Below, one piece after another: positions 8,112-20,657 of a stretch of 20,657 bases of DNA (position 1 is its first letter; every line of letters begins with the position of its first letter). The notes under the pieces are model-generated. The model was not told where the DNA came from. It ran no database searches and saw only the letters and a program-made list of their open reading frames with translations. The position numbers were made by a program, and so were the translations under genes. The stretch is taken from positions 1-20,657 of IMG/VR virus record IMGVR_UViG_3300033571_027961, one strand, 5' to 3'. This stretch comes from a virus.

Positions 8112-8549
8112 ATGAATACAGAATTTAAAGGTTTAGAAAGTCTAGTGGAAGTCACTTTAACCGATCCGCAAAATTTCTTGAAAATAAAAGAAACTTTGAC
8201 CCGAATTGGTGTTGCGAGTCGCAAAGAAAACACACTCTATCAATCGTGTCATATACTTCACAAACGCGGCAAATATTACATAGTTCACTTTAAAGAGTTG
8301 TTTGGTTTGGATGGTCACGATATAACTTTCGATGAAGACGATCTGGCTCGTAGAAATACCATCACAAATTTATTGGAAGATTGGGGCTTGATCAATATAG
8401 TAGATCAAGCAAAAACCGAGGAACCGGTTGCTTTGATGAACACAATCAAAGTATTGAATTACAAAGAAAAAAACGAGTGGAAACTTGTTCCCAAATACAA
8501 TATCGGAAAGAAAATTAAAAATGAAACTCAATCTGAAGAGCAAAATTAA
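8112..8549 (+). CDS. regA: RegA translational repressor
   Basis: 145 residues against 122 in T4. RegA binds A/U-rich mRNA around start codons and blocks ribosome entry on early genes, including 44, 45 and its own. Close matches to T4 RegA as I recall it include KIKETLTRIGVASRK, LYQSCHILHKRGKYYIVHFKE, LLEDWGLINIV and EWKLVPKYNIGKK. It has about 10 extra residues at the N-terminus and an acidic tail (NETQSEEQN). Start ATG 8112 is in ATTATAAAAATGAAT, A/U-rich without an SD, so self-control is plausible. Its last 29 nt overlap the lipoprotein gene in another frame. Confidence 0.95.
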   Translation: MNTEFKGLESLVEVTLTDPQNFLKIKETLTRIGVASRKENTLYQSCHILHKRGKYYIVHFKELFGLDGHDITFDEDDLARRNTITNLLEDWGLINIVDQAKTEEPVALMNTIKVLNYKEKNEWKLVPKYNIGKKIKNETQSEEQN

Positions 8550-8760
8550 GATTTTTGTTGCAGCAAGTGGATTCATTTTTCTGCCGGGGTGCAACAATGC
8601 CGTACAAGGCGGTTTAAGCGGTGCAGCCCTTGGAGCACTGGCTGGAATGGGTATCGGCTCGCTAACGGGCGATATGGGCAAAGGAGCGGCTGCTGGAGCC
8701 ATTATAGGTGGTGTAGGTGGTGCGATCATTGGCGATCAAAATCGCAGAAACGACAAGTGA
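8521..8760 (+). CDS. Glycine-zipper lipoprotein
   Basis: 79 residues from ATG 8521, inside the 3' end of regA; the start is set by the signal peptide. MKLNLKSKIKIFVAASGF is a basic then hydrophobic signal, followed by LPGC with Cys24 as predicted lipidation site (Pro at -2 is unusual for a lipobox). Residues about 28-70 are a Gly/Ala-rich glycine zipper (GAALGALAGMGIGSL, GAAAGAIIGGVGGAIIG), as in bacterial SlyB/OsmB/YmgG-type outer-membrane proteins that pack helices in membranes. It is expected in the cell envelope. In a phage it could change the host surface, for example to exclude other phages, but no such activity is shown. Confidence 0.75.
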   Translation: MKLNLKSKIKIFVAASGFIFLPGCNNAVQGGLSGAALGALAGMGIGSLTGDMGKGAAAGAIIGGVGGAIIGDQNRRNDK

Positions 8761-9014: not shown

Positions 9015-9046
9015 GTGTAAAAACCTTGCTTTATAAGGAGGCAAAT

Positions 9047-9472
9047 ATGGATTTGGTTTTTAATAGTCCGCTGTTTCGTTCGTTTATTGGCTACGATGAT
9101 TTGTTCAAAGAACTGGAAGTTGTGCTGGCTTCCAAAGACAATTCAGCGTATCCACCGTTCAACGTGTGGTCGGTAAAACCCACACAGCAAGATGTAGCCG
9201 AAACTACGTATGTGGAACTTGCGGTTGCCGGTTTCAAGAAATGCGAATTGGATGCGTATCTTGAAAACAATGTGCTGACCGTCAAGGGGCAAAAGCAAAG
9301 CAACACACCCGTAACTGGATACCGTGGAATCGCCAAGCGCGATTTTGTGCGTCAATTTCGTGTGGGTGAAAAGTACGTGGTTCACAGTGCCAAACTCGAA
9401 GACGGCATCCTGACGATTCGTTTGGATTTGCCGATGGCCAAAAAGCTTGAAGCACGAATTGAAATTCAATAA
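9047..9472 (+). CDS. hsp20: Small heat-shock protein, Hsp20 family
   Basis: 141 residues. Start ATG 9047 has a strong SD (TATAAGGAGGCAAATATG). The N-terminus, FNSPLFRSFIGYDDLFKELE, is like that of bacterial IbpA-type proteins. The alpha-crystallin domain spans about residues 40-135 (YVELAVAGFKKCELDAYLEN, GYRGIAKRDFVRQFRV) and contains the closing DGILTIRLDLP strand. Such chaperones hold unfolding proteins in the cytoplasm without ATP. Hsp20 genes are common in marine T4-like phages, where they may protect replication or assembly proteins. It has its own promoter-like region and a terminator-like hairpin after it. Confidence 0.93.
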   Translation: MDLVFNSPLFRSFIGYDDLFKELEVVLASKDNSAYPPFNVWSVKPTQQDVAETTYVELAVAGFKKCELDAYLENNVLTVKGQKQSNTPVTGYRGIAKRDFVRQFRVGEKYVVHSAKLEDGILTIRLDLPMAKKLEARIEIQ

Positions 9473-10432: not shown

Positions 10433-10504
10433 GCCACCTTAGCAGAGTAGTAATGCGGTCGCCTTGTAAGCGTCAGAGCGCGGGTGCAAATCCCGCAGGT
10501 GGCT
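10433..10504 (+). tRNA. tRNA-Thr (anticodon TGT)
   Basis: 72 nt. The acceptor stem GCCACCT pairs fully with AGGTGGC. The D-arm is short (GCA/TGC with a 9-nt loop). The anticodon loop CTTGTAA carries TGT, reading ACA (Thr), on a stem with one T-T mismatch. The T-arm is GCGGG, TGCAAAT, CCCGC. The discriminator is T and CCA is not encoded. The T-loop starts TGCAAAT rather than the usual TTC, so the gene is slightly diverged. It ends 6 nt before the polymerase ATG, and five T residues follow the acceptor stem. Confidence 0.88.
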
Positions 10505-10510
10505 TTTTAT

Positions 10511-11785
10511 ATGAATACATTTTACACAAACGTTCAAACGAGCGGCGACAATATTTTGTATCGTGGTTACGAGAACGGCAAGCGTGTGGAACAGCGCATT
10601 GCATTTAGACCGACGTTGTATGTTCCTAGCAAAAATGCGACAGCAACATATCGCACCATCAAGGGTGTGGCTGTGGAACCAATTCAACCCGGAACCATTC
10701 GCGATTGCGAAGATTTTGTGGAAACATATTCGGATGTTCAAAACTTTGAGGTCCACGGTCATACCGATTGGATTTATCAATACATCTCTAGTTTGTATCC
10801 CAATCACGAGGATGCCGAGTATGACATGAATACGATTCGTACGGTGTACATAGATATTGAGAACGAATGCGAAGATGGCTTTAGCGATCCCAAAGACGCA
10901 AGCGAGAAAATCAATGTTATCACCGTTAGATACAATGATCGCAAGTATGTACTTGCGACAAACAATTTCATACTTCCTGAAGATGCGAATGTATATCAAC
11001 AAGTTTTTCAAGACGAAAAAGATCTTTTAGAAAAGTTTGTTGAGATTTGGCGAGAGATTGATCCGGATGTAGTGACAGGATGGAATGTTCGTTTCTACGA
11101 TATTCCATATATTGTGAATCGCATCAAGCGTGTGTTTGGCAAGCGCGGAAACGATGTGGCTCGCAGCCTTTCGCCGTGGCGCAATCTGCGTGACGACGAA
11201 GTAGATTACAAAGGCAAAACGCAACAGGTTTACAAAATCTCGGGCGTTGATATTCTCGATTACTACGAGTTGTATCGCAAGTATGTTCTTGCGCCACGCG
11301 AAAGCTACAAGCTTGATTATATCGCAAGCATAGAACTCGGCAAAAAGAAAGTTGATTATTCCGAGTACGGTCACATCCGAGATTTCTACACCAAAAACTT
11401 TCAAAAGTTTGTTGAATATAACGTTCAAGACGTGGATCTGGTTCGTGAACTGGACGACAAACTCAATCTGCTTGAACTGCACATATCGATGGCTTATCTC
11501 GCTAAAACCAATTACAACGATGTGTTTGGTCAAGTGCGAATGTGGGACACGATCATTTACAACCATCTGCTTCGCAGCAACATTGTGATCTCGCAACGTC
11601 GCGACAAAAACAAAGACAGTCAATACGCAGGCGCATACGTAAAAGATCCGATCGTTGGATTTCACGATTGGGTTGTGAGTTATGATTTAAATTCTATGTA
11701 TCCTATGACTATTTCACAATTTAATATTTGCCCTAGCAAGATGGTCACCGAAGAAGACCTGTTGCAGATGATCAAAAATTGCTAA
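10511..11785 (+). CDS. 43: DNA polymerase, N-terminal part (gp43A)
   Basis: 424 residues of a family B replicative polymerase, ending in a stop shortly after motif A. It holds the N-terminal domain and the 3'-5' proofreading exonuclease: Exo I with Asp115 and Glu117 (YIDIENE), Exo II TGWNVRFYD (Asp197), Exo III YNVQD (Tyr303, Asp307). Polymerase motif A is YDLNSMYP with catalytic Asp392. The sequence continues TISQFNICPSKMV and stops after MIKNC, so motifs B and C are absent and lie in the ORF at 12506. The two pieces sum to 872 residues, near the 898 of T4 gp43. ATG 10511 is the natural start; the only SD-like sequence upstream (AGGTGG, 10498-10503) is inside the tRNA acceptor stem. Confidence 0.93.
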   Translation: MNTFYTNVQTSGDNILYRGYENGKRVEQRIAFRPTLYVPSKNATATYRTIKGVAVEPIQPGTIRDCEDFVETYSDVQNFEVHGHTDWIYQYISSLYPNHEDAEYDMNTIRTVYIDIENECEDGFSDPKDASEKINVITVRYNDRKYVLATNNFILPEDANVYQQVFQDEKDLLEKFVEIWREIDPDVVTGWNVRFYDIPYIVNRIKRVFGKRGNDVARSLSPWRNLRDDEVDYKGKTQQVYKISGVDILDYYELYRKYVLAPRESYKLDYIASIELGKKKVDYSEYGHIRDFYTKNFQKFVEYNVQDVDLVRELDDKLNLLELHISMAYLAKTNYNDVFGQVRMWDTIIYNHLLRSNIVISQRRDKNKDSQYAGAYVKDPIVGFHDWVVSYDLNSMYPMTISQFNICPSKMVTEEDLLQMIKNC

Positions 11786-11786
11786 T

Positions 11787-11833
11787 TCCTAAATAAGATG
11801 GGGATACATACTATACCCCCATCTTATTTAGGA
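11787..11833 (+). promoter_or_regulatory. 17-bp hairpin burying the SD of the homing endonuclease
   Basis: TCCTAAATAAGATGGGG (11787-11803) is perfectly complementary to CCCCATCTTATTTAGGA (11817-11833), with a 13-nt loop. It begins one base after the gp43A stop codon. The right arm contains most of the AGGAG that precedes ATG 11841, so the folded RNA should block translation of the endonuclease. In T4, the I-TevI ribosome-binding site is known to be sequestered in a similar way. It may also slow or end transcription after gp43A. Confidence 0.75.
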
Positions 11834-11840
11834 GAATGCA

Positions 11841-12509
11841 ATGAAAAATAACTGTTACGTGTATCTGTATAAAGAAACAGAAGAATCCGAAGATCCGGGA
11901 TTTTATGTTGGAAAAGGTCACGACAATCGAAAAAATGCTCATTTAAAACCATCTCTATGGAAAAATCCGGAAAAAACGACAAATCCATACTTATATTATA
12001 AAATAAAATCAATGATGGAATCTGGTAAAAAACCACATATAGTTATTCTAGCCGAAAACATTTCAGACGAACAAGCATATAATATTGAACATGAATATAT
12101 TAAAAAACATGGTAGACGTTTTGTTGACGGTGGGATATTATTTAATATATCCGATTTTAAAGGTGGATCGTATTCTGGCTGTAAACGTCCAGAATGGTCA
12201 GAAGAATCTATACAATCTTTTCGCAAAGCTTGCAAAGGATTAAGGATATATGATCCTACTTATGAAGAATTATACGAAGAATTTGTAGTCAAAGGAAAAA
12301 CGAAGCCAGAGATAGCAAAAGAAAATAATTGCAGTGCTTCTTTAGTTAAAAAAAGAATACAGGAATTAGGAATCGCGGGAAAAAAACCAAAAGAACTTTT
12401 ATATCCAAAAAAGAAAAAATGGATATGCAAAAATTGTAATAAAGAATTTTATACACCAAATTGCATCAAAACTAGATTGTTTTGTTCTAGGGAATGCCGT
12501 TTCAAATGA
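11841..12509 (+). CDS. GIY-YIG homing endonuclease
   Basis: 222 residues, SD AGGAG inside a hairpin. The N-terminal GIY-YIG nuclease domain (about 5-100) shows YVYLY for the GIY part, FYVGKG for YIG, Arg30 (DNRKNAH) and a catalytic Glu in YNIEHEY (probably Glu83). Next are an HTH-like segment (about 140-178, KPEIAKENNCSASLVKKRIQ) and a C-terminal zinc finger with Cys196, Cys199, Cys215, Cys219. This is the form of freestanding phage enzymes of the Seg/Mob kind that cut an empty allele and copy themselves into it. It separates the two halves of gp43, and its stop overlaps the gp43B start (ATGA). Codons are visibly more A/T-rich than in gp43A. All catalytic motifs look intact. Confidence 0.9.
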   Translation: MKNNCYVYLYKETEESEDPGFYVGKGHDNRKNAHLKPSLWKNPEKTTNPYLYYKIKSMMESGKKPHIVILAENISDEQAYNIEHEYIKKHGRRFVDGGILFNISDFKGGSYSGCKRPEWSEESIQSFRKACKGLRIYDPTYEELYEEFVVKGKTKPEIAKENNCSASLVKKRIQELGIAGKKPKELLYPKKKKWICKNCNKEFYTPNCIKTRLFCSRECRFK

Positions 12510-13852
12510 CAAAAAAAGAAGCATTAAAAATTCTACTGGATTCGATGGAAAATGGAAGAATAACTAGTATTTCTCCAGACTCTATAATTGATGGTAAAGT
12601 AAATCCTTTGATCTTTGAAGCATGTCAATTGCTGAATTTTGCTATTGCATCCAATGGTACAATTTATAAAAAAGATTCTGATGGATTTTTACCAGAATTA
12701 ATGAATTCTATGTACGAAAAGCGCAAATACAGTAAACAAAAAATGTCTTTGTTAAAAAAAGAAGCATCAAAAAAAGACATTACCATCGATCAAAAAAACA
12801 ATATTCAAAAACAAATAGACAAATACAATACTCAACAATCGGCATACAAGATAGCATTAAATTCTGCGTATGGTGCTTTGGGTAATCAGTATTTCCGTCA
12901 CTACGATGTGCGTCAAGCCGAAGCAATCACGCTGTCGGGGCAGTTGAGTATTCGTTGGATTCAAAACAAACTCAACGAATATCTCAACAAGTTATTCAAA
13001 ACAAAAAACCGTGATTATGTGATCGCAAGCGACACCGACAGCGTGTACTTGAATCTCAAAACGGCTGTTGAAGTTTCGTGTCCCAACGAAACCAACAAAA
13101 CCAAGATTGTTGATTTCTTGGACAAGTTCTGCAAGCAGATCATGGATCCGTACATCGAAAAGTGCTATCAGCAATTGGCTGATCGTATGAATGCGTATTC
13201 ACAAAAGATGGAAATGAAGCGCGAAGTTATTGCGGATCGTGGCTTGTGGAAAGCCAAGAAAATGTATTGCTTGAATGTTCACGACAGCGAAGGAGTTCGT
13301 TACAGCGAACCGCAACTCAAGATCATGGGCATCGAAGTTCAAAGATCCAGTACTCCATCGATTTGTCGTGAACATCTCAAGCAGTGTGTTAAGATTATTC
13401 TCACGCAAGACGAAAACAGTTTGATTGATTATATTGACAATTTCAAGCAAGTGTTTTTTGCAAGTCAACCCGAAGATATTTCTTTTCCTCGTGGCGTAAA
13501 TGGACTGGAAAAATATGCCAGCAAGAGTACTGTATTCACGAAGGGAACACCCATTCACGTCAAGGGTGCTTTGATATTCAATCACATGCTCGACAAAATG
13601 AAACTCAACAAACTGTACACCAAGATCGGCGACGGAGACAAAATTCGCTTTTTGTATTTGCGCGAGCCAAATCCAACAGGCGATCGTGTGATAAGTTATG
13701 TTGGAAAAATCCCACCCGAAATGAAATTGACACAGTATGTTGACTACAATTTGCAGTTTGAGAAAACATTTCTGGAACCTTTGATTGGTTTGCTTGATGC
13801 AGTCAAATGGAGTCACGAACGCAAGAATACGCTTGAAGGATTTTTCTCATGA
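12506..13852 (+). CDS. 43: DNA polymerase, C-terminal part (gp43B)
   Basis: 448 residues from ATG 12506, which overlaps the endonuclease stop (ATGA); ATG 12494 is an in-frame alternative. It carries polymerase motif B (KIALNSAYG, Lys115-Gly123) and motif C (SDTDSVY, Asp176 and Asp178), plus thumb and C-terminal clamp-binding regions ending LEGFFS. Catalysis needs Asp392 of gp43A as well, so the two polypeptides must assemble. The first 12 residues (MTKKEALKILLD) resemble the end of gp43A (TEEDLLQMIKN). Up to about 12880 the codons are A-rich like the endonuclease; later they return to the style of gp43A. Its stop overlaps the gp61 start. Confidence 0.92.
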   Translation: MTKKEALKILLDSMENGRITSISPDSIIDGKVNPLIFEACQLLNFAIASNGTIYKKDSDGFLPELMNSMYEKRKYSKQKMSLLKKEASKKDITIDQKNNIQKQIDKYNTQQSAYKIALNSAYGALGNQYFRHYDVRQAEAITLSGQLSIRWIQNKLNEYLNKLFKTKNRDYVIASDTDSVYLNLKTAVEVSCPNETNKTKIVDFLDKFCKQIMDPYIEKCYQQLADRMNAYSQKMEMKREVIADRGLWKAKKMYCLNVHDSEGVRYSEPQLKIMGIEVQRSSTPSICREHLKQCVKIILTQDENSLIDYIDNFKQVFFASQPEDISFPRGVNGLEKYASKSTVFTKGTPIHVKGALIFNHMLDKMKLNKLYTKIGDGDKIRFLYLREPNPTGDRVISYVGKIPPEMKLTQYVDYNLQFEKTFLEPLIGLLDAVKWSHERKNTLEGFFS

Positions 13853-15730: not shown

Positions 15731-18700
15731 ATGAACGCACAAGTACAGGCACTTGCAGATTATACCTTTGTTTCAAAGTACGCCAAGTATAACACCGAGC
15801 TTCATCGTCGAGAAACATGGAAAGAATGTATCGAACGCAGTCGTGGTATGCACCTTTCTAAATATGCAGGATCGATTGAAACTCTCAAGCCTTTTATCGA
15901 CGAAGCATTTGATGCTTATGAAAACAAAATTTGTGTCGGCAGTCAACGCAATCTGCAATTTGCTGGCGATGCCGTTTTTCGTCATAACGCTCGCAGTTAT
16001 AATTGCTGTGGTTCTTACGTTGATCGTTTGCGATTCTTTCAAGAAGCTATGTACAACTTGCTTTGCGGTACTGGCGTAGGTTTTAGCGTTCAAGCGCATC
16101 ATGTTGCAAAACTTCCTCCGCTTGATTTGCGCGAGAAGACCGAAATTGTTACTCATGAAATTTCTGATAGCATCGAAGGATGGGCTGACAGTATTGGCAT
16201 TCTTGTGAGTTCATATTTCAAGATTGTAGATCAAAATAGCATCTATCCCGAATATCAAGGTAAAGTTGTAAAGTTTGTTTACAAGAACATTCGCGAAAAG
16301 GGTACTCCATTTTCACACGGAATCGGTCGCGCACCCGGAGCCGAACCGCTTCGCAATGCTCATGAAAAGATTCGCAAGTTGCTCGACGAATGTGTTGCTA
16401 ACGGACAAACAAATCTCAAGCCAATCAATGCTTACGATATCGTGATGCATTCATCGGATGCTGTTCTTTCGGGTGGTATTCGTCGCTCTGCAACCATTTG
16501 TATTTTTTCGGTTGACGATCAAGAAATGATGAACGCCAAAACTGGCAATTGGTTCATCGACAATCCTCAGCGCGGTCGCAGCAACAACAGTGCATTGTTG
16601 CTCAAGAACAACACTTCACCCGAACAATTCAAGTTGCTGATCGAAAGCACCAAGCAATTCGGTGAACCTGGATTCTATTGGAGCGACAGCACCGAAATGA
16701 TTCCTAATCCATGTTTACCTTCCGATGCGTGGGTTCTTACCAAACAAGGTCCTAGACAAATTAAAGATTTGATTGGAAAATCTTTTGACGCATATGTAAA
16801 CGGTAAGCTTTATCATTCGCCTACTGGTTTCTTTCATACAGGTTATCAAAAGATTTATCAAGTTAAAACAAGCGAAGGATATAGCGTAAGTGCAACTCAC
16901 AATCACCAATTTTTGATTGTTGATGAACACAACAATCAATCGTGGAAAACTATCGATCAATTGAATATTGGTGATTGTATGGTAATACATGATCACGATA
17001 ATATCCAATGGGACGGAAAATTGAACGAACGTGAAGGTTGGTTGCTTGGAAGCTTGTTGGGTGATGGCTGCATTTCAGATGATACAGCTTATCTTGATTA
17101 TTGGGGAGATAACGCAAATATCATGAAGAATATTGCTCTTGATAATTTGAAGAGCAACAATATGATTGCTGAACATGTTTCTGGTTACAGTCAGATTGCG
17201 ACAGTAACAAAACAACGAGTCGAATCTGTAAATTTGAAGAAACTTGCAAACAGTTACGGTATGCGTCGTGGCAACAAAAACCTCAACGAAAACATAGAAG
17301 AGATCAGTAGCGATGCATATCGAGGATTTTTGCGAGGATATTTTGACGCTGACGGTAGTGTTCAAGGTAATACTGCAAAAGGAACTTCGATTCGCTTGTG
17401 CTCGGTAAATATGCACAATCTTGAAATAGTTCAACGCATGCTTTTACGTCTTGGTATTTACAGTAAAATTTTTGCAAATCGTCGTCCCGCTGGCGAACGT
17501 AAAATAAAGAATGGTGTTTATGCTTGTCAGGCATGTCATGAATTGGTTATTAGCCGAAACATGATTGGAAGATATTTAGATTTGATTGGTTTTGAAGACC
17601 CGGAAAAGAAATTGAAACTTAATAATTTAGTATGTTCGTATCAAAAGAATTTTTATAAAACTAAATTTGTTGCTACGGTGTCTTCGATTGTTCAAAAAGA
17701 TTCTGAAATGGTATACGATTGTACAGTAAACGACATTCATGCTTTTGATGCAAACGGTTTCTACACTCATAATTGTGTTGAGATTGGCTTCTATTGTTAC
17801 GATGCAGATGGCAACAGTGGCTGGCAGTTCTGCAATCTTTCTACGATCAACGGTAGCAAGATCAAGACTGCAGCCGATTTCCGCAAAGCTGCTCGTGCTG
17901 CTACAATCATCGGCACGCTTCAAGCAGGATACACCGACTTTCCGTATCTTGGAAAGGTAACCGAAAGCATCGTTCGTCGCGAAGCATTGCTTGGTGTAAG
18001 CATCACGGGTATGATGGAAAATCCCAAGGTTCTGCTCAGTGCATACTATCAACGCGAAGTTGCAAGTGAATTGTCTGCGGTCAATCGTGAAGTTGCAGCA
18101 ATCATCGGTATCAATCCTGCGGCTCGCATCACTTGCATCAAGCCCGAAGGCAGCACCAGTTGCATGCTTGGCACAAGCAGTGGTATTCACCCACATCACG
18201 CCAAGCGTTACATTCGTCGTGTGCAAGCCAACAAGATGGAAGCACCTGCACAGTATTACGCAAATCTCAATCCGCGTTCTGTTGAAGAAAGCAGTTGGAG
18301 TGCCAACAACACCGACGTGTGCATCAGCTTTGCTTGCGAAGTCAACGACAATGCGATTCTCAAAAATCAAATCGATGCAATTCAAATGCTCGACAATGTC
18401 AAGACAACTCAAATGAATTGGGTTGCGAGTGGATGCAACGCTGAACTTGGAACTCAACCTTGGTTGAGCCACAACGTGAGCAACACAGTTGTTGTGAAGC
18501 CCGAAGAATGGGATGCAGTCGAACACTACATTTACGACAACCGTCAATATTTTGCGGGTGTGTCTTTGATTGGTTCGAGTGGCGACAAGGATTATACTCA
18601 AGCTCCGTTCACCGAAGTTTTCACTCCTGCAGAAATTGTAGAAATTTATGGCAACGCAAGTCTGTTTGCTTCGGGTATCATCGAAGAAGCAATGATGTCG

Positions 18701-19021
18701 TACGGTGATCTTTGGAAAGCTTGTGCAACCGCTCTTGGTTATGGCGAAAACCTTGACGAAAAGCGAGTACTCGAACACGAAGAATTGCACCGTCAAAACA
18801 AATTAAATTGGATTGTGCGTGTCAAGAAGTTTGCCAAAAAGTATTACGGTAACGATGTCAAGAAAGTTACGTATCTTCTCAAGGATGTATACAACTGGAA
18901 GTTGTGGTATGATATCGTCAAGGAACACAAGAAGGTTGATTATACTGAATTGTATGAAGGCACAAACACAACAAACGGTACACAAGAAATCGCATGCGCC
19001 GGAGGCGTGTGCTTGGTATAA
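15731..19021 (+). CDS. nrdJ: Class II ribonucleotide reductase with intein (NrdJ)
   Basis: 1096 residues, of which 354 (328-681) are an intein; the spliced enzyme is 742 residues, like the monomeric adenosylcobalamin-dependent reductase of Lactobacillus (739). It reduces ribonucleoside triphosphates to deoxy forms using a cobalamin-generated thiyl radical. Landmarks are the NCC pair near residue 92, NP-CVEI with radical Cys682 and Glu684 (the C follows the intein), FCNLS (Cys701), the EGSTSCMLGTSSGIHP segment, and the C-terminal CAGGVC (Cys1089, Cys1094) that re-reduces the active site. SD AAGGA precedes ATG 15731. No class I or III reductase is seen here. Activity requires splicing and a supply of B12 from the host. 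Confidence 0.94.
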   Translation: MNAQVQALADYTFVSKYAKYNTELHRRETWKECIERSRGMHLSKYAGSIETLKPFIDEAFDAYENKICVGSQRNLQFAGDAVFRHNARSYNCCGSYVDRLRFFQEAMYNLLCGTGVGFSVQAHHVAKLPPLDLREKTEIVTHEISDSIEGWADSIGILVSSYFKIVDQNSIYPEYQGKVVKFVYKNIREKGTPFSHGIGRAPGAEPLRNAHEKIRKLLDECVANGQTNLKPINAYDIVMHSSDAVLSGGIRRSATICIFSVDDQEMMNAKTGNWFIDNPQRGRSNNSALLLKNNTSPEQFKLLIESTKQFGEPGFYWSDSTEMIPNPCLPSDAWVLTKQGPRQIKDLIGKSFDAYVNGKLYHSPTGFFHTGYQKIYQVKTSEGYSVSATHNHQFLIVDEHNNQSWKTIDQLNIGDCMVIHDHDNIQWDGKLNEREGWLLGSLLGDGCISDDTAYLDYWGDNANIMKNIALDNLKSNNMIAEHVSGYSQIATVTKQRVESVNLKKLANSYGMRRGNKNLNENIEEISSDAYRGFLRGYFDADGSVQGNTAKGTSIRLCSVNMHNLEIVQRMLLRLGIYSKIFANRRPAGERKIKNGVYACQACHELVISRNMIGRYLDLIGFEDPEKKLKLNNLVCSYQKNFYKTKFVATVSSIVQKDSEMVYDCTVNDIHAFDANGFYTHNCVEIGFYCYDADGNSGWQFCNLSTINGSKIKTAADFRKAARAATIIGTLQAGYTDFPYLGKVTESIVRREALLGVSITGMMENPKVLLSAYYQREVASELSAVNREVAAIIGINPAARITCIKPEGSTSCMLGTSSGIHPHHAKRYIRRVQANKMEAPAQYYANLNPRSVEESSWSANNTDVCISFACEVNDNAILKNQIDAIQMLDNVKTTQMNWVASGCNAELGTQPWLSHNVSNTVVVKPEEWDAVEHYIYDNRQYFAGVSLIGSSGDKDYTQAPFTEVFTPAEIVEIYGNASLFASGIIEEAMMSYGDLWKACATALGYGENLDEKRVLEHEELHRQNKLNWIVRVKKFAKKYYGNDVKKVTYLLKDVYNWKLWYDIVKEHKKVDYTELYEGTNTTNGTQEIACAGGVCLV
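16712..17773 (+). mobile_element. LAGLIDADG intein in NrdJ
   Basis: The intein starts at Cys328 (block A: CLPSDAWVLTKQGPRQIKDL) and ends HN before Cys682. Block B is SATHNHQF with the TxxH pair. The endonuclease motifs are WLLGSLLGDG and FLRGYFDADG, both with their acidic residue. Blocks F/G are MVYDCTVNDIHAFDANGFY then THN. All splice-junction residues (Cys1, penultimate His, terminal Asn, Cys+1) are canonical, so splicing and homing both look intact. The insertion point is between Pro and Cys of the conserved NPC active-site motif. Confidence 0.95.
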
Positions 19022-19117
19022 ACTTAACACAAAGGAGATAGCCATGTAGTGTTTAGATAAACAAACAACACTTGCTATGACTAACTTAACAGGTATTTTA
19101 ACAAAGAAAGGTTTCAG
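19021..19117 (+). promoter_or_regulatory. Structured leader of the porin gene with an ATG-TAG element
   Basis: A strong SD (AAAGGAG, 19031-19037) is followed at normal distance by ATG (19044-19046) and at once by TAG. ATAGC (19038-19042) and AGTGTT (19048-19053) can pair with AACACT (19067-19072) and GCTAT (19074-19078), leaving most of the ATG in an internal loop. AACTTAACA at 19021-19029 recurs at 19083-19091, each time upstream of an A-rich/SD region and an ATG, so the segment may be a duplicated initiation region. No convincing promoter is seen. Confidence 0.5.
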
Positions 19118-20131
19118 ATGAATAAGTTTAGTTTTATTTTTGCTATGATTGTTTCGATGATTTCGGTTGTTGCTGGTGCTCAAGTTGACACCACCAAGCT
19201 CATGGAGCGTTCGGATCAAATCACCGCTGCTCAAAAGCATTCGGTGAACATCGGTGGTGTTGCTCAGTTCCGTTTTGGATACTCGTCCAACGGTTCGAGC
19301 GATGCCAATGGTTTTGAAATTCCGCTCGTTCGCCTCGATGTTTCGGGTGATCTCGGTCACGGATTCGGCTTTGTTGTAAGCCCATTCGTTGATGCCGATG
19401 GAGACTTGGATCTTCAGAATGCTTTTGCTGATTATGATTTCAGCAGCGTCAACAACCTCAACGTCAAGTTTGGTCAGTTCCGTCCTCAGTTTATGACGGA
19501 ACTCAACGGCAACGACGAAGACATTGTGCCCGCTACGCACAGCCTTGTTGCCAACACTCTTGGCCAGACGTTCACACAGGGCGTTGAAGGCAAGTGGTCG
19601 AACGATACGTTCTCGATCAGTGCTGCTTTGACCGAAGGAGTTGATCGTGCTAACACTCCTATCGATATCGAACCTGATTACGCCACCACCGCTCGTTTTG
19701 GTTGGAATGTTTTCAAGACTTCCAACAGCGGTCTCGCTGTGGGTGCAGGAATCAATCACGAAGACGACTTTACGGTTTATGTGGCTGATGCCGCATGGAA
19801 CTACCGTAAGTTCAACGTTGGAGTTGACTATGCTCACTCGGATCAAGAAGTTGAGCATGCAGTCGTCGGTACTGTCGCTTTCGACATGACCGAAAACTTC
19901 CAGCCATTCGCTCGTGCTGAATGGGCTAGCGTTGAATCGGAAGAAGACATGAGCGTGTTCACAGTTGGTGTAAACTACTACGCTGTGAATCGCGCCGTCA
20001 AGTGGACCAACCAAGTTGGTTACGCTGTGGAAGATGTCACAGCCACTTGGGACACCACCAACACTGGTTGGGTCTCGGGAACCGAAGAGGGTGAATTTGT
20101 GTTCACCTCGCAGTTCCAAGTGTTGTTCTAA
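19118..20131 (+). CDS. Outer-membrane beta-barrel porin
   Basis: 337 residues. Start ATG 19118 follows AAAGAAAGG. A signal peptide (MNKFSFIFAMIVSMISVVAGA) has an AGA cleavage site after residue 21. The mature protein shows alternating strands with aromatic ends (VAQFRFGYSS, LNVKFGQFRPQFM, FTVYVADAAWNY, FNVGVDYAHS, FQPFARAEWASV, FTVGVNYYAV) and ends FQVLF, with the C-terminal Phe recognised by the outer-membrane assembly machinery. Resemblance is to the phosphate-selective porin O/P kind (GQF-RPQF, FxxPLVRLDVSG), though ion preference cannot be read. A porin in a phage genome is unusual; it may raise host uptake late in infection or alter the surface. It is flanked by its own leader and hairpins, like an added 'moron' gene. 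Confidence 0.85.
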   Translation: MNKFSFIFAMIVSMISVVAGAQVDTTKLMERSDQITAAQKHSVNIGGVAQFRFGYSSNGSSDANGFEIPLVRLDVSGDLGHGFGFVVSPFVDADGDLDLQNAFADYDFSSVNNLNVKFGQFRPQFMTELNGNDEDIVPATHSLVANTLGQTFTQGVEGKWSNDTFSISAALTEGVDRANTPIDIEPDYATTARFGWNVFKTSNSGLAVGAGINHEDDFTVYVADAAWNYRKFNVGVDYAHSDQEVEHAVVGTVAFDMTENFQPFARAEWASVESEEDMSVFTVGVNYYAVNRAVKWTNQVGYAVEDVTATWDTTNTGWVSGTEEGEFVFTSQFQVLF

Positions 20132-20152
20132 AATCTAAAATAAATTTAGATT
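20132..20152 (+). terminator. Small A/T hairpin after the porin
   Basis: AATCTAAA (20132-20139) pairs with TTTAGATT (20145-20152) around ATAAA. It directly follows the stop codon and precedes a stronger terminator. Confidence 0.4.
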
Positions 20153-20187: not shown

Positions 20188-20195
20188 CATAAATA
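20188..20195 (+). promoter_or_regulatory. Weak T4-late-type promoter motif (CATAAATA)
   Basis: One mismatch from TATAAATA, directly after the terminator but only 7 nt before ATG 20203. RNA would begin at or next to the ATG, so a leaderless or non-functional site is possible. Confidence 0.2.
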
Positions 20196-20202
20196 TTGAT
20201 AG

Positions 20203-20657
20203 ATGTTAATAGCTGGTGTTGATTATTCGATGAGTTGCCCGTGTATAACGGTGGGCGATTCGCACCAACTAGATTTTAAAAAATGCTCGGTTCATTACCT
20301 GACCGACACCAAACGATACGAAGGTAAATTCAAAAACATAACTGGATATTTGTTTGAGCGTCCTGAAAACCAAATGGAACGCTTTATTCGCATCAGCGAA
20401 TGGGCATACGACATCGTGAAAGATTGCGATCAAGTGATGATCGAAGACTATGCCATGGGATCGCGTGGCAAGGTGTTTCACATCGCCGAAAACACAGCGA
20501 TGCTCAAATACAAATTACACACCAACAGCAAGCGATGGGCAGCGTTGCCTCCCATGTCGCTCAAGAAATTTGCAACCGGAAAAGGCAACGCCGACAAACC
20601 AAAGATGTATGAAACTTTTGTGAATGAAACCAAAATCGATCTCAAAAAACTTTTTAA
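20203..20657 (+). CDS. RuvC-like nuclease, partial at window end
   Basis: 151 codons, still open at the last base. The first strand LIAGVDYSM carries the conserved acid Asp7, VMIEDYAMG the second (Glu81), and PMSLKKFATGKGNADKPKM is the typical later segment of phage RuvC-type resolvases with an RNase-H fold. These cut Holliday junctions or branched DNA during packaging and recombination. ATG 20203 is chosen because the next ATG (20230) would remove Asp7; no SD is visible. The remaining acidic residues should lie beyond the window. Confidence 0.8.
   Translation, partial: MLIAGVDYSMSCPCITVGDSHQLDFKKCSVHYLTDTKRYEGKFKNITGYLFERPENQMERFIRISEWAYDIVKDCDQVMIEDYAMGSRGKVFHIAENTAMLKYKLHTNSKRWAALPPMSLKKFATGKGNADKPKMYETFVNETKIDLKKLF

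Follow-up and report, generated by a model that had tools for sequence, protein, structure and literature searches.

The window analysed here is the whole of a 20,657-base virus record (IMGVR_UViG_3300033571_027961), a metagenome contig fragment like every locus with which it was compared. Close to its end lies a porin gene, bounded by a ribonucleotide reductase gene and by a gene for a RuvC-like resolvase, with the following features:

15731..19021, + strand, ribonucleotide reductase (NrdJ) with an intein-like insert, upstream neighbour of the porin
19022..19117, + strand, 96-nt leader from the NrdJ stop to the porin start
19031..19049, + strand, strong Shine-Dalgarno sequence and ATG-stop mini-ORF within the leader, AAAGGAGATAGCCATGTAG, kept in the related loci L002, L003, L004 and L005
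19118..20131 (stop codon included), + strand, porin gene, an open ORF for 337 aa with an ATG start and AAAGG upstream
19118..19180, + strand, signal-peptide-like N terminus, residues 1-21, read from the sequence, with the site between AGA and QV
19481..19573, + strand, loop 3 of the AlphaFold2 model, spanning residues 122-152, joining strands 5 and 6 and holding a short helix at 143-149
20132..20152, + strand, first hairpin, at the porin stop codon
20154..20183, + strand, second hairpin with a T tail, resembling an intrinsic terminator
20203..20657, + strand, RuvC-like resolvase, downstream neighbour, truncated where the contig stops and followed in relatives by a PhoH-like gene

The preliminary description had placed the porin in a phage genome, and the gene content of the window confirms it. 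The sliding clamp (gp45), the clamp loaders (gp44 and gp62), the translational repressor RegA and gp43 are all present, together with a primase, ThyX and NrdJ, and on these genes the phage carrying the porin is T4-like. Named phages share no more than 56% identity with its clamp loader, the nearest being phages of Methylophilales. The porin adjoins genes for DNA replication and nucleotide synthesis (polymerase, primase, ThyX, reductase). Two of these genes are interrupted: a homing-endonuclease-like gene of low GC (0.31) at 11841-12509 splits gp43 (10484-13852) into two ORFs, while the polymerase of the related locus L008 is a single ORF of 847 aa, and the intein-like insert of the reductase is absent in L004 (742 vs 1096 aa) and present in L005 and L008.

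The porin had also been described as complete, with a signal peptide, barrel strands and a terminal Phe, and this was borne out by the open 337-aa frame, by its last residue, which is Phe, and by the 16 strands of the structural model described below. Judged by eye, the N terminus, MNKFSFIFAMIVSMISVVAGA followed by QV, is built like a Sec signal peptide and carries an AxA-type site, leaving a mature protein of 316 residues; the porins of L003, L004, L005 and L088 have comparable N termini. In the L088 porin (L088:7473-8588) the N-terminal region carries two copies of a 20-residue repeat, KPPRDGFERREFVREVDTHQ.

Searches against porin profiles, proposed earlier as a check, matched Pfam Porin_O_P (PF07396) in the window at 25.2 bits, against a curated cut-off of 20.9, in a profile search of the genome. 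Since hmmscan of the window protein alone gave no match, this match is weak without the relatives, of which L005 reached 32.6 bits (6.8e-8, hmmscan) and L089 42.1 bits, whereas the L088 homologue had no PF07396 match; no PHROG or NCBIfam match was found for the porin. The comparison of a profile of the phage porins with cellular Porin_O_P proteins taken from Pseudomonadota genomes was far above chance. With hhalign it scored 97.3% (E 2.6e-11), whereas 100 column shuffles never exceeded 2.2% and the reversed control gave 0.2%; with six phage rows it scored 98.6% (E 6e-16; reversed control 0.1%), the alignment spanning 322 columns from the N to the C terminus and reaching the terminal Phe.

Prediction of the 16-18-strand barrel expected for such a protein gave 16 strands at medium confidence (AlphaFold2 on six sequences, pLDDT 68.7, pTM 0.64); with four rows, three of them near-identical, pLDDT was 28, and a usable model was obtained only when L088 and L089 were added. 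The model has a 31-residue loop joining strands 5 and 6, containing a short helix. Its best solved match was OprP (Z 24.6, 286 residues, 4.0 A), followed by OprO (Z 24.5), but general porins were nearly tied, with OmpT (Z 24.1) less than one Z unit below OprP, so the fold indicates a porin and it is the sequence profile that indicates Porin O/P. Taken with the profile comparison, the model supports assignment of the window protein to the Porin_O_P fold family, and the likeness to phosphate-selective porins noted earlier stands to that extent. Compared with OprP and OprO of Pseudomonas aeruginosa (PF07396; PDB 2o4v, 4rjw), the phage porin shares the 16-strand fold, the long loop between strands 5 and 6 and the full-length profile alignment to the terminal Phe, but it is shorter (316 mature residues vs 411) and only 18% identical in the structural alignment. 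These results also bear on the idea that a phage-encoded protein with a barrel-like fold might be a virion component or adhesin. Beyond its being encoded by a phage nothing speaks for that idea, and we regard it as hardly credible given that the N terminus resembles a signal peptide and the last residue is Phe, both features of exported barrels, that the gene lies with replication genes, and that every fold and profile match is a porin.

Membership in this family invites the assumption, made in the preliminary description, that the protein raises phosphate uptake in P-poor water. The best family match is indeed Porin O/P, OprP is the closest solved fold by Z, and a PhoH-like gene lies two genes downstream, although PhoH is widespread among phages and has no settled function. 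The residues that form the phosphate site of OprP are R34, Y62, D94, K121, S124, S125, K126 and R133 (PMC5877670). As reference for mapping them we used L033, an OprO-like control that matches residues 28-442 of OprO at E 9e-229; the profile alignment puts V48, R72, Q100, L129, N132, D133, E134 and H141 in their places, so that none of the eight is kept in the window porin; L005 keeps S125 only, and L088 and L089 keep R133 only. The alignment behind this mapping has an identity of only some 18-19%, and a site elsewhere in the protein is conceivable. The arginine ladder is not retained either: R59 and R60 of OprP are replaced by P and L, the arginine-bearing SRIRPRLGMRG of the control falls in an alignment gap in the phage porin, and Arg and Lys together number 16 in the mature window porin vs 43 in the control; net charge alone settles nothing, because the OprO-like control is acidic too (-16 against -29). 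Since the site residues are absent, the arginine-bearing stretch is gapped and Arg and Lys are few, phosphate selectivity of the window porin is not supported, and the proposal of raised phosphate uptake, which the sequence does not bear out, appears improbable. Likewise, ExtI of Geobacter sulfurreducens carries the same family-name annotation and lacks most OprP substrate residues; a "phosphate-selective" annotation in this family need not mean phosphate selectivity (PMC5877670). ExtI is likened here to the phage porin by description, and differs in being cellular and in lying in a cytochrome cluster. The family name calls for caution, as it points to phosphate where the residues give no support for it.

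Homologous porins were found in other phage contigs at widely different distances from the window: L002 is identical, L003 and L004 are 91% identical, L005 55%, L089 38%, and L088 and L090, whose contigs are 99.97% identical in DNA and represent one virus, 35%. Three protein or alignment scans of IMG/VR returned the four closest loci only, and the distant ones were found by a degenerate DNA pattern for NTLGQxFxQG. No additional porins in IMG/VR matched the motif K-x-GQF-[KR]-P-[PQ]-F, and its PQF form gave only chance hits in genome contigs, where an alignment scan confirmed no porin either. A tblastn search with four phage porins and an OprO-like porin found none in 50,697 phage records, a collection from which records near the window may be missing by design, and the L005 porin found none in plasmids. 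The order reductase, porin, RuvC-like gene and PhoH-like gene is kept in L002, L004, L005 and L088; the contigs of L003 and L089 start just before or within the porin, which is followed there too by the RuvC-like gene and PhoH. The locus is thus shared across phages whose RuvC-like proteins are down to 53% identical, and in L088, where the window reductase finds no match and the reductase is a different one, the position of the porin is nevertheless unchanged.

One close relative departs from this pattern. In L008, 52 nt with a hairpin-like stretch stand where the porin would be, within flanks of the same gene order (orf186, orf512, clamp, clamp loader, RegA and lipoprotein genes). As the distant L089 and L088 also have the porin, L008 most simply lacks it through loss, though the RuvC-like and PhoH trees are too weak in support to prove this, and the L008 PhoH looks mosaic (88% to L002 vs 70% for L005).

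A phylogeny had been suggested as a way to find the donor host. Among 398 Pseudomonadota genomes there was no close cellular relative of the phage porins, only remote matches. In a tree with 26 cellular porins, the six from phages group together as a single clade (support 100/100, long stem), with an attachment point that is unsure at about 20% identity. It could be argued that the porin is a recently captured host gene carried as a passenger without selected function, since its composition differs from that of the reductase (GC3 0.52 vs 0.39; codon-usage distance 0.47) and one relative does without it. However, such an origin seems very improbable in view of the single long-stemmed clade without a close cellular relative in the 398 Pseudomonadota genomes, of a locus that stays constant down to 35% porin identity, and of purifying selection. 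Among the close porins dN/dS is 0.10-0.11, and in the comparison with L005, where dS is near saturation, it is 0.22; by these ratios the phage porins are under purifying selection.

The surroundings of the gene give some indication of its expression. The porin had been described as lying between its own leader and two hairpins, and the anatomy stands, with a 96-nt leader and two 3' hairpins at z -7.0 that recur in L005 with a different stem sequence (z -6.9). However, L008, without the porin, also has a hairpin at the corresponding place, and the terminator may be a feature of the whole operon and not just of the porin. The 96-nt leader shows no unusual fold. It has no sigma-70-like promoter either, and in L088 the porin starts 28 nt behind the reductase stop; the missing promoter and the short spacing suggest that the porin may be transcribed together with the reductase. 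The Shine-Dalgarno/ATG-stop element is kept despite drift elsewhere in the leader and is absent in L088; a scan of IMG/VR for this start-stop arrangement gave 40 hits, near chance expectation. Codon use in the porin is narrow, with AAG for all Lys and ATA, TTA, AGA and GGG unused. Such strong bias is as expected for a highly expressed gene, but it could alternatively stem from a donor genome.

We propose that the phage porin probably opens or remodels the outer membrane of the infected cell. In the reading that we prefer, at a probability of roughly 0.55, it sits in the host outer membrane as a phage-encoded diffusion channel with the Porin_O_P fold, which would keep or widen the passage of small hydrophilic solutes without being phosphate-specific in the manner of OprP. 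The infected cell would synthesise the protein from the stretch that also encodes the polymerase, primase, ThyX and ribonucleotide reductase. The Sec and BAM machinery of the host would export it and place it in the outer membrane, where it would form a 16-strand barrel whose loop 3 folds into the pore; small hydrophilic solutes might then keep passing, or pass more, while the phage replicates. The pattern of conservation agrees with a role of the pore. Between the window and L005, identity is 87% in loop 3, 55% in the strands and 50% in the other outer loops, which are short (59 residues in total), and this fits selection on the pore and not on the surface. In the distant L089 and L088, loop 3 is 45% and 35% identical, no better kept than the strands. 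Counting against a channel is the fact that L008, a close relative, does without the porin.

The preliminary description had offered a changed receptor or surface as a second possibility, and this is the main rival reading. A different purpose would be served if the porin replaced or diluted the host porins, thereby removing receptors, excluding competitor phages or stopping progeny from sticking to debris. The high expression predicted from codon use would suit replacement, and in E. coli a phage porin transcript (IpeX) is reported also to lower host OmpC (PMC12197685, citing Castillo-Keller 2006). The same phage also has, behind RegA at 8515-8760, a Gly-zipper lipoprotein-like ORF (PF13488, 6e-9) with a lipobox-like LPGC, which is likely a second outer-membrane gene; it is conserved in the phage of L008 (contig L098), at 78% identity over 67 residues. 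We nevertheless hold this explanation to be unlikely, if by no means far-fetched, because the outer loops are short, loop 3 is the best kept part in the close clade, and the gene lies among the replication genes of T4-like phages, with no lysogeny cassette seen.

Lambdoid phages are known to carry porins, namely Lc of PA-2 and NmpC of a cryptic prophage, and for lambdoid phage porins such as that of PA-2 a role in receptor removal or exclusion has been proposed. Like these, the window porin is phage-encoded and would be made in the infected cell, but they are OmpC-like and belong to temperate phages, whereas the window porin is Porin_O_P-like and lies beside replication genes in T4-like phages. 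Phage porins as a kind are thus already known, both from E. coli phages, including the porin transcript with the IpeX sRNA (PMC12197685), and from named entries among the predicted viral structures of BFVD. Those resembling the modelled fold come from Siphoviridae sp. ctBLh2 ("Phosphate-selective porin O and P", E 1.1e-15) and from uncultured Caudovirales phages ("OmpC Outer membrane protein (Porin)", E 2.0e-12), but they are 11-14% identical to the window porin, and ctBLh2 is another phage type. The novelty lies in a Porin_O_P-type family that keeps its syntenic position across divergent T4-like phages and lacks the OprP phosphate site.

Where phage genes alter host metabolism, their products are mostly enzymes or components of the inner membrane and periplasm. 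That distant T4-like phages keep a porin at a single locus would mean that the outer membrane itself is targeted by the infection programme, and it permits a direct test of whether phages open the outer membrane for nutrients or close it to rivals. Extending the channel reading, we tentatively suggest, at somewhat less than even odds, that these porins are an old, vertically inherited phage family, a compact non-phosphate pore that T4-like phages add to the outer membrane of the host within their replication programme. If so, control of outer-membrane permeability would be a standing function of T4-like phages and not an occasional borrowed gene.

Two further observations were made along the contigs. 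An Hsp20-like gene at 9026-9472 of the window is apparently missing between orf84 and dUTPase in the phage of L008, with no match in the ORFs of L098 or L008. Directly 5' of the RuvC-like gene, at 20188-20195, stands a late-promoter-like element, CATAAATA, which is also found in L003, L004, L005, L008 and L089 and has AATAAATA as its counterpart in L088.
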